From: Candidatus Moranbacteria bacterium CG_4_9_14_3_um_filter_44_28
Lineage (GTDB): Bacteria > Patescibacteriota > Minisyncoccia > Moranbacterales > UBA11712
Reading direction: 5' to 3'
Assembly: GCA_002790655.1 (NCBI GenBank)
Contig: PFVO01000010.1
Span: 1 to 42,837, forward strand
Length of the DNA: 42,837 nt
Notes under the pieces: generated by a model
Databases searched by the model: none
What the model was told of the DNA's origin: nothing
The model's input: the letters and a program-made list of their open reading frames with translations, nothing else
Position numbers and translations under genes: made by a program
Part shown: positions 174 to 38,666 of the stretch, piece by piece
Layout of the letters: the number at the start of each line of letters is the position of its first letter
Position numbering within the stretch: the first letter of the stretch is position 1

Positions 174-1862
174 ATGCCCAAAAACGATACCGAAGTCTCA
201 CAACCGATAAAAGATTTTCTCAAGGTTTTTCAGGAAGAAACAGCCAAGTTCGAAGAAATTTCCGAAGAAAAAAAGGAAGAAAAAATAGAAACTGAAGAAG
301 CAAGCGAGAGCATAGCTCTTTTTTATGAGAAAATCCGCCGGCTTATTGAATACAAGGACGACCACCTCATCAAAAGAAGCGCTATTCAAAGAATCCTCAA
401 GCGCAATCTCATCATTGAATGGCGCCAGAGCGATTTCACCGGGCAATTTATAAACGAACTCGTTATGGCCGGCTACCTGAACCGCGAGCAAGCCGGCGAT
501 GAAGCAAAATCCGAAGTCGCACGAATTATCGGGAAGTATCAGGCTCTTTTCAAAAATCTTTACAACATTGAGCTCCGCCGCTGGCTGGTTGGAGTGGCTT
601 CCTGCGAAATCGAGGAAATCCTTTTCCCTCAACCGGTGAAAAAGGCGCTGGTAAGAGCGTTGTTTCAATCACTGGAAAATAAAATCGTCGTCCAAAATGA
701 ACCCCGCACCACAGAAAGCCGCGGGGAGAGGGCTGTGGTGCGGGGTGAAAATGATTCCACCGACCGGGAAATTCAAATCTATCTGGCCAGTCTCCGCTCT
801 CTCGTGAAAGTGGACAACGTCACGCTTGGTTTTGTTCTTCTCAAGATTTATCTCCCGGAATGGTTCCAAAAAAATACAAAGAAAAAATCTTATTCGACAA
901 GAGAACTTTTTTTGCTGAAAAAGAAGATTGAAAAGAAACTCGCGTCCCCTCTTATGTTTCGGATCGCCGTTGCCATAAAGAGAACAGCTTTGTATTTCAA
1001 CATCTTCTATGAAACTACATTGAGAAATGCCGGAAAAGCTGGAGCGATCACCGAGGATCCGGAAGCGCTTCGCTTTGCGGTTCAGCTGACTTGCGGCCAA
1101 ATTTATGATCAAGAAATGAAAAGATTTAAAAAGCGGGTCAGGCGCAGTCTGGCGTTTCTTGTCATCACCAAAGTGCTTTTGGCGATTTTCCTGGAATATC
1201 CTTACGCAAAATACGTTCTGGGCAACGTCGTCTGGCTTCCGATTTATATCAATCTTCTCTTTCCCCCGCTTTTCCTTGTCCTTCTTTCCGCGACTGTGTC
1301 AAAGCCCGATTCCAAAAATTCGGCTCTCATTGCCGAGGGTGTCGAAGGCGCAGTTTACAACAGCGGAAAAAACAAAGAAAAAATAATCGTCAAGACCAGC
1401 TTGCCCCGCACCACAGCGTCAGGCTGGCAGATGTGGCTTCCTGTGATGCGGGGTGAGAAAAAAAGTTTCTCGGCAATTTTCCTGGATTTGTTTTTCTTTT
1501 TGACTTTTGGGCTGTCATTCGGGCTGGCTGTCTGGGTTTTGCATTTTTTGAAGTTTGATTTGCCGGCCATTCTGATATTTCTTTTTCTCGCGAGCGTCGT
1601 GAGTTTCTTCAGCGCTTTGGTCCGCCAGCCGATTCGCGATTTGGCTGTGATGAAAGAAAGAGAGGGATTGATCACCACTCTTCTCGATACTCTCTTTTTG
1701 CCATTTGTGCGCATCGGAAAATGGATGACGGAAAACTTTTCCAAAGTCAACATTTTTCTTTTTATTTTCGACGTTTTCATTGAAGCCCCTTTCAAGGTTT
1801 TCGTCCGCTTCGTCCAAAATTGGGCGGGATTCATTCGAAAGAAAAAAGAGGAAATGATATAA
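174..1862 (+). CDS. hypothetical membrane protein (562 aa), soluble N-terminal half, several C-terminal TM segments
   Basis: Long ORF with hydrophobic segments; contains two in-frame palindromes (701-746, 1404-1453). Confidence 0.8.
   Translation: MPKNDTEVSQPIKDFLKVFQEETAKFEEISEEKKEEKIETEEASESIALFYEKIRRLIEYKDDHLIKRSAIQRILKRNLIIEWRQSDFTGQFINELVMAGYLNREQAGDEAKSEVARIIGKYQALFKNLYNIELRRWLVGVASCEIEEILFPQPVKKALVRALFQSLENKIVVQNEPRTTESRGERAVVRGENDSTDREIQIYLASLRSLVKVDNVTLGFVLLKIYLPEWFQKNTKKKSYSTRELFLLKKKIEKKLASPLMFRIAVAIKRTALYFNIFYETTLRNAGKAGAITEDPEALRFAVQLTCGQIYDQEMKRFKKRVRRSLAFLVITKVLLAIFLEYPYAKYVLGNVVWLPIYINLLFPPLFLVLLSATVSKPDSKNSALIAEGVEGAVYNSGKNKEKIIVKTSLPRTTASGWQMWLPVMRGEKKSFSAIFLDLFFFLTFGLSFGLAVWVLHFLKFDLPAILIFLFLASVVSFFSALVRQPIRDLAVMKEREGLITTLLDTLFLPFVRIGKWMTENFSKVNIFLFIFDVFIEAPFKVFVRFVQNWAGFIRKKKEEMI
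701..746. repeat. palindrome ACCCCGCACCACAG-(18 nt)-CTGTGGTGCGGGGT inside the 562-aa CDS
   Basis: 14-bp perfect arms; same arms and loop length as the uvrA copy. Confidence 0.95.
1404..1453. repeat. palindrome CCCCGCACCACAG-(24 nt)-CTGTGATGCGGGG inside the 562-aa CDS
   Basis: 13-bp arms with one mismatch; same family as 701-746. Confidence 0.9.
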
Positions 1863-5540: not shown

Positions 5541-6122
5541 TTGGAAAAAATGCGAAAAGTTCTTCCCCGAAAATTCTATTCCCGGAATACTCTGAAAGTT
5601 GCCCGAGACCTTCTTGGCTGTTTTTTAATCCGCGAATGCCGCGGAAAAATCTGGCGCGCGATGATCACCGAAACCGAAGCCTATCGCGGCGAAGACGATT
5701 TGGCCTGCCACGCTTCGCGCGGAAAAACTTCCAGAACGGAAGTGATGTACGGTGAGCCGGGACACACCTATGTCTATATGATTTACGGAATGTATTATTG
5801 CCTGAATATAGTGACCGAGCAAAAAGATTTCCCCGCAGCGGTTTTAATTCGGGGTGTGAAAATCATATCCTCCTCCCCTGCCCGAGGGGAGGAGTTAGAG
5901 GAGGGGTGGGAGCTAAACGGCCCCGGAAAACTCTGCAAATTTTTGCATATTGACCGAAAACTCAACAAATGGGATCTTACAAAAGGCAAAAAACTTTGGA
6001 TCGAAAAACCCACCCAAAATCCCGCCAAGCGGGATATCGTGGCGGGCAGGAGAATTGGCATCGACTACGCCCAACACTGCCGGGAATATTTGTGGAGATT
6101 TCAAATTGACTACCAAGACTAA
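5541..6122 (+). CDS. DNA-3-methyladenine glycosylase (AAG/MPG family)
   Basis: ARDLLGCFLIRE, ITETEAYRGEDDLACHASRG, GHTYVYMIYGMYYCLNIVTE, NGPGKLCKFLHID, RRIGIDYA. Carries two palindromic low-conservation inserts. Confidence 0.9.
   Translation: MEKMRKVLPRKFYSRNTLKVARDLLGCFLIRECRGKIWRAMITETEAYRGEDDLACHASRGKTSRTEVMYGEPGHTYVYMIYGMYYCLNIVTEQKDFPAAVLIRGVKIISSSPARGEELEEGWELNGPGKLCKFLHIDRKLNKWDLTKGKKLWIEKPTQNPAKRDIVAGRRIGIDYAQHCREYLWRFQIDYQD
5871..5911 (+). repeat. palindromic in-frame repeat in AAG gene (TCCTCCCCT-gcccg-AGGGGAGGA plus GAGGAGGGG)
   Basis: Perfect 9-bp inverted repeat 5871-5879/5885-5893; encodes SSPARGEELEEGW between IRGVKII and ELNGPGKLC. Confidence 0.75.
6020..6046 (+). repeat. 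nested palindromic in-frame repeat in AAG gene (TCCCGC-caa-GCGGGA within CCCGCCA...TGGCGGG)
   Basis: Inverted repeats 6020-6025/6029-6034 and 6021-6027/6040-6046; encodes NPAKRDIVAGR. Confidence 0.7.
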
Positions 6123-6157
6123 GTCTTAGGATAGTCCTAAGACTTAGTCTTTTTTAG
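6115..6157 (+). terminator. intrinsic terminator after AAG gene; stop codon lies in the stem
   Basis: AAGACTAAGTCTTAGGA-TAG-TCCTAAGACTTAGTCTT perfect 17-bp stem followed by a T-run. Confidence 0.9.
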
Positions 6158-12919: not shown

Positions 12920-13120
12920 GATGCTAATCTGCGAATAAATGCCTGCCCGAAATGCTTTGATTGTTATCGAAGTGATTACAAAATAACAAGCTAATAAGTT
13001 TATCGAGGAATAACAAATGTGGACAGAGGCATTTCAAAGCAGGCGGGCTAATCAACGAATCACGAATTTTATTCGCACATTCGCAATTCGTTGATTCGCA
13101 TTTATTTGCGGATTCGCATC
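12920..13120. repeat. large imperfect palindromic intergenic element (201 bp)
   Basis: Outer arms GATGCTAATCTGCGAATAAATGC (12920-12942) and GCATTTATTTGCGGATTCGCATC (13098-13120), 20/23 complementary; inner arms GCCTGC/GCAGGC, GAAATGC/GCATTTC, AATCAACGAAT/ATTCGTTGATT. Confidence 0.8.
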
Positions 13121-23356: not shown

Positions 23357-24475
23357 TTATAGAAAATCTTTTTTACTTGTCGAGGCTTTGAATTTTTCTA
23401 ATATTCCCGGTCCCTGCGGTTCGGGGAGGAATACCAAATTTTCGTCGTCATATTCGACATATCCTCCTTTCTTATACGTCAGCGGGTTGCGTTTAATCCG
23501 CGCGATTTGCTTTCGCTTGAGCCAGGATTCTATTCTATCGCCAAATATAAAATTTAGCAAGACTTCGCGGGGCTTTTGAATAAATCGGCTGAATCGGCTG
23601 TGTTCCATATAATATTTGGATGGTTTTAATTCTGAAAACTTAAAATTAGGTTTAAATTTTTTCATCCATTCAATATTTGCTTCGCCAAATTGACAAAAAA
23701 CACTTTTTTTTGTCATCCCGCACTCATTTTTTGTCATCTCGACCAAGTCCCGATTTATCGGGACGCGCGGAGAGATCTGTGTCGAAATTGCATGGCTAGC
23801 CAATGCTTTATTTACATAGATTTCTCGACTCCGCTCCGCTCCGCTCGGGATGACAAGAGAGTCAAATATTGGGTATATGAAAGAATATTCGTTCGCGGCA
23901 AAAAGGTCTTGGCGCTTGATTTCGAGGCTTCCGGTGGTAATGAAATAATTCAAACAAATCCGGTTTTTTATTTTATCACCATGCCGCCGCTTGCCAAGCA
24001 AGTGCACCGCGAGCGTCACCAACAATCTCCCCGTCCAGATTCTTCCTTTCTCTAATACTACGAGAAAATCAATATCGCTGTTCTTTTCCGGATTCTTCAT
24101 CGCCAGCGTTCCGGTTACGGCAACCATTCGCACAAACGGCACGAACCGCAGCCACCAAGCCACGCGCTCGGCGATTTTGTATTTGGCGATTGAATTTTTG
24201 TCGTTTTGGATTCTTTGCTCAACCAGAGTCTTGCGTCCTCTCAAAAAATAAAATCCCCGAAATTCTTCAATATGCTTTTTCAACTCCTTGCTCTCAAGAG
24301 CTTCGATAATTTCACCCAGGCTTATTTGGACATTCGATGTCCAAGTCCAATTGGACATCGAATGTCCATCAATCACGGTCAAATATTTCCAAACCTCAAA
24401 GGAAGTAAGGGGAAAATTCAGAATGTCGCAATAGATAATCGTATTTAGTATATTTTTTGTAATTTGAGATTGCAC
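23357..24475 (-). CDS. nucleotidyltransferase-like protein carrying two in-frame palindromic inserts
   Basis: VAVTGTLAMKNPEKNSDIDFLVVLEKGRIWTGR (GS-type NTase signature), continuous 372-aa ORF. Confidence 0.75.
   Translation of the reverse strand: MQSQITKNILNTIIYCDILNFPLTSFEVWKYLTVIDGHSMSNWTWTSNVQISLGEIIEALESKELKKHIEEFRGFYFLRGRKTLVEQRIQNDKNSIAKYKIAERVAWWLRFVPFVRMVAVTGTLAMKNPEKNSDIDFLVVLEKGRIWTGRLLVTLAVHLLGKRRHGDKIKNRICLNYFITTGSLEIKRQDLFAANEYSFIYPIFDSLVIPSGAERSREIYVNKALASHAISTQISPRVPINRDLVEMTKNECGMTKKSVFCQFGEANIEWMKKFKPNFKFSELKPSKYYMEHSRFSRFIQKPREVLLNFIFGDRIESWLKRKQIARIKRNPLTYKKGGYVEYDDENLVFLPEPQGPGILEKFKASTSKKDFL
23732..23855. repeat. MITE-like palindromic element (TGTCATCTCGACC...CCGCTCGGGATGACA) inside the CDS
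   Basis: 124 bp, termini TGTCATCTCGACC/TGTCATCCCGAGCGG; translated as LVIPSGAERSREIYVNKALASHAISTQISPRVPINRDLVEMTK; related to the intergenic copy 6251-6376. Confidence 0.85.
24327..24368. repeat. perfect palindrome TGGACATTCGATGTCCA-agtccaat-TGGACATCGAATGTCCA inside CDS
   Basis: 17-bp perfect arms, 8-nt loop; 42 nt = 14 codons. Confidence 0.9.
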
Positions 24476-24497: not shown

Positions 24498-27401
24498 TTA
24501 TCGCATATATTTCCCCGTCCACGTTTTCGCCCTCGCCAATTCTCTCGGCGTCCCGGAAAATATGACGTATCCGCCTTCTTCTCCTCCTTCCGGACCGAGC
24601 TCAATCACCCAATCGGTAGAGCGGATAACGTCGAGATTGTGTTCGACAACGATAACTGTGTTTCCTTTTTCAACTAGTTCATCCAAAATCGCAAGAAGCC
24701 GTGAAACATCCTCGAAATGCAGTCCGATGGTCGGTTCGTCAAGAATATACAAGGCTTTCCCGTTTGTTCGGCGGGCAAGTTCGGTTGAAAGTTTGATTCT
24801 CTGCGCTTCCCCACCCGAGAGATTCATGGCTGATTGACCTAGTTTCAAATACCCCAGACCGACTTCGCTCAAAGTTTTTAGTTTTTCGACTACCAGCGGG
24901 AAGCGGTGAAAAAACTGAAGAGCATAATCAATGCTCATATCAAGAACTTGAGCAATATTTACTCCCTGATACTCAACTTCAAGAGTTTTTTGGTTGTATC
25001 GCGAACCCTCACAAGCCTCGCAGGGCGCGTAAAGATCCGGCAAAAGATGCATTTCAATTTTTTTCTGCCCTTCCCCCTGACAAACTTCGCAACGGCCGCC
25101 TTTCATATTGAAGCTGAAGCGCGAAGGCAAAAATCCCCGTTTTTTCGCCTCGTCCGTTCCGGCAAAGATTTCCCGGATCAGAGAAAACACACCCGTATAA
25201 GTGGCCGCGTTTGAGCGGGGCGTGCGCCCGATCGGCGACTGGTCAATGCTCACAACTTTGGAAACATTTTCCAACCCCTTTATTTTTTTGTGCTTCCCCG
25301 GTATGTCTTTTGCTCTTGAGAAATGTTTGCGCAATGCCTTTGTGAGAATATCTTCAACTAAGGTGCTTTTTCCCGATCCTGAAACGCCGGCCACAGCTAC
25401 CAGTTTCCCGAGCGGAATCGAAAAATTAATGTCCTTGAGATTATTTTCCCGCGCGCCGATTATCTCGATTTTCTTCCCGCTACCTTTGCGATAAACTTTT
25501 TTGTCAAAAACCTTTTTCTTTCCGCGCAAAAATTCTCCGGTCGAAGTTTTGGAGGAAACCAGCTTTTTGGCGGATCCTTCAAATATAATTTCTCCTCCAT
25601 CTTCTCCCGCACCGGGACCCATATCAATTATCCAGTCGGCCGAGCGGATGATTTTCCCATCATGTTCAACCACAATGACGCTCGATCCTTCCTGCTTCAA
25701 TTTCCGGAAAGTGTTTATTAGTCTTTCTGTATCGCGCTCGTGAAGACCAACTGTTGGCTCGTCGAGGATATATAAAATTCCAGTCAGCCCCGACCCGATT
25801 TGAGTGGCCAGGCGCACCCTTTGCGCCTCCCCACCGGAAAGAGAATTGGCACCCCGGGACAATTTCAAATAGCCAAGACCTGTTTCGCAAAGATGGCCGA
25901 CAATTTTCTCCGTTTCCCTGTAAATTTCATTAAATAGATTTTCTTCCGCCGAAGACAACTTTGCGCTTCTGATAATTTTTTTGATTTGCGAATTAAAATT
26001 ATCAAGGCTGATCTCGCAAATATCGTGAACGGATTTCCCGCCGATTTTCACCGCAAGTGTTTCCGGTTTTAAGCGTTTTCCCTCACAAACAGGGCAAGTC
26101 TTGATAATCATATATTTCTCGACTTCGCCCCGGACAAAATCAGAGCCGGCCTCTTTGTATTTTCGTTCGAGCATCGGCACAATTCCTTCGTAATTCAACT
26201 CTTTGTCTCCGTAAAGAATCGCACCGAGAGCCGCGTTATTTAAATCTTTTATAGGTTTATCCAAAGAAAAATTATACTCTTTTGACAGTACTTCGAGTAA
26301 CTTGTGATACCTGTTGTGGTTCCCCCCGCGCAGTCCCAGTCCGCTCCAGGGCTTTACTGCTCCTTCGCGAATGGAAAGATTTTTGTTGGGAATAATCTGA
26401 TCAATATCCACCTCCAGTTTTGTTCCAAGTCCCGAACAAGAGAGGCATGCTCCCTCCGGGCTGTTGAAAGAAAAATGGCGCGGCGTTATTTCGAAAATTG
26501 TTACTTCGCAATCACTGCAAACAAGATAGCGATTATATTTCTTTTCGGGGCCGCCGTCAAGCAAAGCGACGATAACTTCGCCTTGCCCCAGCTTCATGGC
26601 TGTTTCAATAGAATCAATGAGTCTCTCTCGGTCCTGAAAATTATTTGATATATTTATGCGATCAACCACAATTTCAAGACTTTCAATTTCCCCGTCGTCT
26701 TTTCCGAGATTCACCCCGCACCACAGCTTTACCTCCGCGACTCCCTGTGGTGCGGGGTGAATCTGATCGGAGGCAATAATTTTTTTGTTGATTCGAAGTC
26801 TCGCATATCCCGATTGCCAAATTTGGGAAATTTTTTGAGTTGCCTTTTCCTTCTCAATCTGGACTGGAGCTAAAATTGCAATCTGCTCCTTATTGCCTCT
26901 GTAAAGACCAATAACTTCTTCAGCCACTTCGCCGGCGGTTTTCCGCGAAAGCGGTTTTTGACATTTTGGGCAGTACGGTTTCCCGATTTGGGAAAACAAG
27001 ATGCGAAGATAGTCATAAATCTCCGTAATTGTGCCTACCGTCGAGCGCGGAGAGCGGTTGACATTCACCTGATTAATGGCAATTACCGGCGAAAGGTTTT
27101 CAATTTTGTCCACGTCGGGTTTGGCCATAACGTTCAGGAACTGCCGGGCGTAAGCTGACAAATTCTCAACATATCGGCGGTGCCCCTCGGCAAAAATCGT
27201 ATCAAACGCCAAAGACGACTTCCCTGATCCGGAAAGTCCGGTGATGACTACCAGTTTGTCGCGCGGAATCTTAACTGATATATTTTTCAAATTATTCACC
27301 CGCGCCCCTTTGACGATGAGATGCGATTTGTTTCCGCCAGATTTATTGGCGCCAGCCAGAGGCTGGTCAGCCTTTGGCTGAGATCCGCCTTTGGCGGACA
27401 T
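24498..27401 (-). CDS. uvrA: excinuclease ABC subunit A
   Basis: [103 protein letters not shown] at 27401 preferred; track start 27413 is GTG. Confidence 0.97.
26709..26762. repeat. perfect palindrome ATTCACCCCGCACCACAG-(18 nt)-CTGTGGTGCGGGGTGAAT inside uvrA
   Basis: 18-bp perfect arms, 18-nt loop, 54 nt = 18 codons ([18 protein letters not shown]); shares arms with 701-746 and 1404-1453. Confidence 0.95.
27334..27399. repeat. tandem mini-palindromes at the uvrA 5' end (CCAGCC-aga-GGCTGG, CAGCC-ttt-GGCTG, TCCGCC-ttt-GGCGGA)
   Basis: Three consecutive perfect hairpins with 3-nt loops, translated as [22 protein letters not shown]. Confidence 0.85.
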
Positions 27402-35796: not shown

Positions 35797-35833
35797 AACA
35801 TTCAATGTTAGGGAAACCCTAACATTGAATGTT
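35797..35833. repeat. perfect palindrome AACATTCAATGTTAGGG-aaa-CCCTAACATTGAATGTT in the divergent manB/manC intergenic region
   Basis: 17-bp perfect stem, 3-nt loop, ending 9 nt before the manC-like ATG. Confidence 0.93.
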
Positions 35834-38589: not shown

Positions 38590-38666
38590 TGATGCTAATC
38601 TACAAATAATACTCGCTTATTCGCAATTCGTTGATTGGCATTTATTTGTAGATTTGCATCACACCT
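38590..38666. repeat. short hairpin copy of the GATGCTAATC...GCATCACACCT repeat
   Basis: TGATGCTAATCTACAAATAA (38590-38609) / TTATTTGTAGATTTGCATCA (38642-38661), 19/20 complementary; core TTCGCAATTCGTTGATT shared with 13080 and 15209 copies. Confidence 0.88.

Follow-up and report, generated by a model that had tools for sequence, protein, structure and literature searches.

A palindrome inserted in frame in a Moranbacteria membrane protein gene is probably a copy of a small MITE-like mobile element

The window analysed here, a stretch of 42,837 nt from Candidatus Moranbacteria bacterium CG_4_9_14_3_um_filter_44_28, contains near its left end an open reading frame (ORF) for a membrane protein that is interrupted by a palindrome. 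The first-pass annotation had described a palindrome with an 18-nt loop at 701-746, and its arms (701-714 and 733-746) were confirmed to be 100% complementary over 14 bp, including one flanking base; the exact ends, CCCC..GGGG, delimit an element of 44 nt (Table 1). The predicted RNA fold of this copy was -32.6 kcal/mol (z = -5.8 against dinucleotide shuffles), and the reading frame stayed open through it (..NEPRTTESRGERAVVRGEN..). The 562-aa ORF had no Pfam match, and its homologues in other genera, among the relatives compared, lacked both of its inserts. A loop core, CYCCGCGRCT, had been likened to that of a palindrome in uvrA and was found in both copies, and the uvrA copy (26713-26758) indeed carries the same arms read in another peptide frame (HPAPQ...WCGVN). 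Its flanking bases lengthen the uvrA palindrome to 20 bp.

Table 1. Location of the element copies in the window, and of the copies nested in tRNA genes
Feature	Location	Strand	Details
Host ORF, 562-aa membrane protein, family unassigned	174..1862	+	two in-frame element copies
Left 4-bp target-site duplication, TGAA	698..701	+	from sequence and family-wide duplication statistics
Palindromic element, copy 1: CCCCGCACCACAG + 18-nt loop + CTGTGGTGCGGGG	702..745	+	net +48 nt, in frame
Right target-site duplication, TGAA	746..749	+	from sequence
Element, copy 2, 50 nt	1404..1453	+	same ORF as copy 1; one arm mismatch; flanks CTTG/TGAG; net +54 nt, in frame
uvrA, 971 aa	24498..27413	-	carries third copy
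Element copy in uvrA	26714..26757	-	in frame; flanks TTCA/TGAA
tRNA-Val split in anticodon loop	host genome, C30		inner: complete, different tRNA-Val(gac); outer intact in G001 as Val(gac)
Ser(tga) nest	host genome, C39		intact orthologue in G003
Ala(tgc) nest	host genome, C14		inner Ala(tgc); outer with G3:U70 pair of Ala
Asn(gtt) nest	host genome, C35		outer tRNA partial
Thr(cgt) nest	host genome, C11		one arm lost; outer tRNA partial
Ser(cga) in T-loop of Ser(cga)	G004		empty orthologue in G002, one base different
Leu(cag) in Leu(cag)	G001
Pro(cgg) in Pro(cgg)	Thermodesulfovibrionales genome
Leu(cag), Arg(ccg), Val(cac), Pro(cgg), Asp(gtc), Arg(cct) nests	380 genomes of the phylum		Arg(ccg): outer tRNA only partly preserved

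The arm sequence YCCCGCACCA occurred exactly 51 times in the 794-kb genome (48 contigs) compared to once for a reversed control pattern, and paired arms occurred six times compared to none in the control, excluding a chance origin. In total, the host genome (G000) carried about 27 elements of 44-150 nt. Restriction of the copies to one gene family had been named beforehand as an outcome that would speak against conservation of the nucleotide structure, but copies were found in unrelated protein genes, within 23S rRNA, in tRNA genes and in intergenic DNA, on either strand. Proteins with in-frame copies were UvrA, TopA (two copies), RsmH, GpmI, a ComF-like phosphoribosyltransferase, a ThpR-like phosphoesterase (two copies), glycosyltransferases, a RibD-like reductase, a beta-helix-like protein and the product of the window ORF, those without a Pfam test being named by reading the sequence. 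The inserted peptides followed the pattern PRTT..VVRG or PAPQ..WCGV depending on frame, with PRTTESRGERAVVRGE as one predicted in-frame insert alongside that of TopA; as copies are read in different frames, at least two of them coding, conservation does not lie in the peptide. Beyond Moranbacteria, to which the relatives G001, G003 and G005 belong as members of the same family as the host genome, the element was found in Komeilibacteria, Yanofskybacteria, Omnitrophota, Nitrospirae/Thermodesulfovibrionales and Deltaproteobacteria. Matches in high-GC actinobacteria (Streptomyces, Frankia) may be due to chance, and we make no claim that they belong to the family, but they remain within the pooled counts of target-site duplications, covariation, frame and wobble pairs given below.

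Copies shared the termini CCCC[G/T]CACCA...TGGTG[C/A]GGGG (CCCCGCACC-like ends), whereas the inner stem and loop were variable, giving lengths from 44 to about 170 nt. Among the roughly 140 distinct copies, drawn from many phyla, 24 were flanked by identical 4-mers, compared to 2.6 in shuffles (actinobacterial matches included), and this signal vanished when the comparison was shifted by one to four bases. The target-site duplication (TSD) is therefore 4 bp long, mostly of the form TNNA; it was still perfect in only about one-sixth of copies, and flank pairs of the CTTG..TGAA type recurred, both points counting against insertion of a mobile element. At the uvrA site the element was present in G000 and G001 with differing loops, and the site was empty in two congeners of the latter: G001 reads TTCA-element-TTCA where G005 and G007 have the plain sequence CAGCTTCA. 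Three genomes (G000, G002 and G004) carried the element at the topA site; G001 and G005 lacked it, and G007 had another palindrome there. The ComF site, both sites in the window ORF and one glycosyltransferase site were also empty in relatives. Clean empty sites in relatives and the 4-bp TSD show that these palindromes propagate as mobile DNA. We therefore consider it very probable that the palindrome in the membrane protein gene is a copy of a small, non-coding, MITE-like mobile element with a 4-bp TSD, whose in-frame copies are translated as a spacer. Movement would depend on a transposase acting in trans. No transposase or autonomous copy with these ends was found with exact arms in five genomes, where all arm pairs lay within about 170 nt of each other, and arm pairs spaced 0.4-4.5 kb apart in the collected loci enclosed no obvious transposase. 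Flank complementarity (8.8 crossing pairs compared to 7.9 +/- 0.5) did not support a preference for hairpin-loop targets beyond the tRNA cases described below.

Insertion of such an element into a gene would be tolerated if it left the reading frame intact. Whether the frames are always open had been posed as a check: element length plus four was divisible by three in 52 of 73 coding copies, i.e. in most of them, compared to 24 of 61 others (P about 4e-11; actinobacterial matches included), and the arms of the window copies lacked stop codons in all frames. This suggests that in-frame insertions are tolerated and translated as a predicted spacer of roughly 15-35 residues; we infer translation from the open frames. 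The many natural pairs of filled and empty sites in core genes (topA, uvrA and rsmH) offer tests of how proteins tolerate insertions.

Elements with long loops often carried an intact tRNA gene. We identified 15 such copies in eight Patescibacteria genomes and one Thermodesulfovibrionales genome, of which 14 were situated in the D-, anticodon or T-loop of a tRNA gene or remnant that, as far as it could be read, matched the isoacceptor of the cargo (Table 1); the exception, carrying Arg(gcg), was not within any recognisable tRNA gene. For four nests (two of Leu(cag), one of Ser(cga) and one of Pro(cgg), the last being the most frequent of several readings), ARAGORN assigned the outer anticodon once the empty site had been joined; the remainder were read from the flanking halves or an intact orthologue. 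In the host genome, no intact gene besides the inner tRNA was found for the anticodons of Val(gac), Ser(tga), Asn(gtt), Ala(tgc) and Thr(cgt). We tentatively propose, at a little under even confidence, that long-loop members are self-rescuing cassettes, which break a tRNA loop, supply a complete but diverged tRNA for the same isoacceptor and leave the host dependent on them. tRNA loops would be favoured targets, and insertions there would persist by virtue of the cargo, which takes the place of the broken tRNA. If such insertions were frequent, survival of only those bringing their own replacement could account for the match between cargo and target; alternatively, a homology-guided process might produce it. 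Local duplication of a tRNA followed by later growth of hairpins, without any insertion of cargo, would also yield nests of the same isoacceptor, and tandem tRNA 3' fragments with hairpins nearby (C14, C32) fit this explanation. We nevertheless regard it as unlikely: inner and outer tRNAs were only 64-81% identical (six pairs, with broken loops filled by hand), which makes a recent local duplication improbable, the outer tRNAs matched intact sister-genus orthologues (G001 Val; G002 Ser(cga), with one mismatch; G003 Ser(tga)), and the arms around the nests were standard element ends. A literature search, the coverage of which excluded most subscription journals, returned no report of the element in Patescibacteria or of same-isoacceptor tRNA nesting, and we know of no precedent for a self-rescuing tRNA insertion of this kind. 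If the cassettes do rescue their own insertions, they would represent a new route by which a selfish element becomes essential, and one by which core tRNA genes could be replaced across lineages.

Several further features of tRNA genes were observed. At C14:30400-31700 and in C32, tRNA genes were followed by duplicated 3' fragments with hairpins inside or alongside, the 3' part of tRNA-Lys being present as two tandem repeats. Broken outer tRNA genes often held a second, different palindrome around the D-loop (e.g. CCTGCCTGCCGGTAGGCAGG), and in Thermodesulfovibrionales palindromic elements were nested one within another. No intact tRNA-Phe or tRNA-Glu was found among 39 tRNA matches in the host genome (96.7% completeness), probably as a result of assembly gaps.

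Pairing of the arms was maintained beyond the conserved termini. Compensatory change between the arms had been suggested as a check, with its absence counting against a conserved structure, and covariation was evident: inner stem positions 11-13 were complementary in 29, 29 and 27 of 31 family copies compared to 13.4, 18.4 and 9.4 expected, with similar complementarity in copies from other phyla. In the orthologous rsmH insert of six genomes, with arms aligned by hand, the stem was 100% paired (72 cells) and four pairs had changed on both sides. In topA, both 14-nt arms were identical across three genera while loops were only 51-71% identical and codons of unchanged residues agreed only about half the time. 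Such identity of the arms would not be expected from simple decay of an inserted element and weighs against the mobile-element reading. It is possible, then, that the hairpin is retained as a functional mRNA structure in stability, pausing or processing, with mobility accounting only for its origin, as the topA and rsmH patterns and the strong predicted folds would suggest. This appears distinctly unlikely, because the same palindromes occur between genes and on either strand, the same genes lack them in close relatives, and stems have decayed in some coding copies (gpmI and a glycosyltransferase of G001). Wobble pairs in the pooled stems comprised 12 G.U and 6 A.C (actinobacterial matches included). 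The arms could be kept paired by selection on the hairpin, by self-templated repair or by conversion between copies, and the data fit any of the three. The first-pass annotation had proposed that conservation acts on nucleotide or RNA structure rather than on protein sequence. The nucleotide part of this proposal stands, as the palindrome occurs in two coding frames, in RNA genes and in intergenic copies; selection on RNA structure does not follow from it, since the TSD and empty sites mark mobile DNA and self-templated repair can keep palindromes self-complementary.

A palindrome of this kind could also be a REP moved by a RAYT (Y1) transposase, given that REPs are GC-rich hairpins and that the host genome encodes three Y1_Tnp genes. 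Single-strand transposition by Y1 enzymes is not expected to generate a 4-bp target duplication, and the three RAYT genes were flanked by other palindromes (TAACCGAGAGC, GAGACGCAT and TTAAGGA types). As the element adjoined none of them, a RAYT origin was rejected and is judged improbable, more so than retention as an mRNA structure. Least credible of all is removal at the RNA level by intron splicing, or skipping as in a translational bypass element (byps): the element does occur in tRNA anticodon loops, where introns are found, and bypass elements are similarly hairpin-shaped, but byps are untranslated and do not keep the frame, whereas coding copies here are in frame and free of stops, which would be needless in an excised element, and D-, anticodon and T-loops are all hit. 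The anticodon loop of the Val gene is TCGACAC in its intact orthologue, and the T-loop of Ser(cga) is TTCGAAT in its own; excision could rebuild neither, which argues against splicing, and a self-splicing intron was rejected on these grounds and because an Rfam search of window positions 400-1700 matched no intron family, nor any other family.

The window contained other repeats. Near the N-terminus of UvrA (27330-27400) there was another in-frame repeat, which consists of small hairpins (GCCAAAGGC, CAGCCAAAGGCTG). UvrA of the relatives lacks it, and several stretches in other ORFs of G004 resemble it. Palindromes with TTAGG(A/G) ends at 6115-6151 and 35797-35833 were similar in form to those beside the RAYT gene of C40 and are possibly RAYT-associated REPs. 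A perfect 18-bp inverted repeat, TGGACATTCGATGTCCAA, was situated at 24327-24368 within a 372-aa ORF (23357-24475), and inverted repeats of the GCTAATCAACGAAT / TGATGCTAATCTAC type at 13047-13099 and 38590-38661, also found near C11:15550, form a separate repeat family.

Bacterial MITEs are non-autonomous, have terminal inverted repeats and duplicate their target site, with occasional in-frame fusions (PMC2229807). Like Correia/NEMIS, RUP, ERIC and YPAL, the element has terminal inverted repeats, a TSD of fixed size and in-frame fusions; in contrast, no parental transposon was found among the exact arm pairs or in the collected loci, inner stems vary yet remain self-complementary, and interiors are mostly unrelated between copies. 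It shares with group I and II introns and archaeal tRNA introns the interruption of tRNA anticodon loops, but differs from them in also hitting D- and T-loops, enclosing whole tRNA genes and leaving loops that excision could not restore, with no intron-family match at 400-1700. Its closest likeness in behaviour is to the Rickettsia palindromic elements (RPE), reportedly described by Ogata et al. in 2000 and 2002. RPE are palindromic repeats found in frame in proteins and in the genes for tmRNA and RNase P RNA, with their target-site duplication listed as "?" (PMC2229807, PMC10969869). As in the coding palindromes of Rickettsia, Wolbachia and Methanocaldococcus, the copies here are short, lie in frame in unrelated proteins and also occur in RNA genes; many palindromic copies, in-frame insertions in unrelated proteins, and insertions in 23S rRNA and tRNA genes were all found. 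In contrast to RPE, the element is as small as 44 nt, has a 4-bp TSD, uses at least two frames, spans several phyla and carries tRNA cargo. We suggest that it works like an RPE; the likeness is one of behaviour, and the element is not filed as an RPE. Although known chiefly from Rickettsia and Wolbachia, coding palindromes also occur in Patescibacteria and in several further phyla, and those described here form a single family with a measurable TSD.
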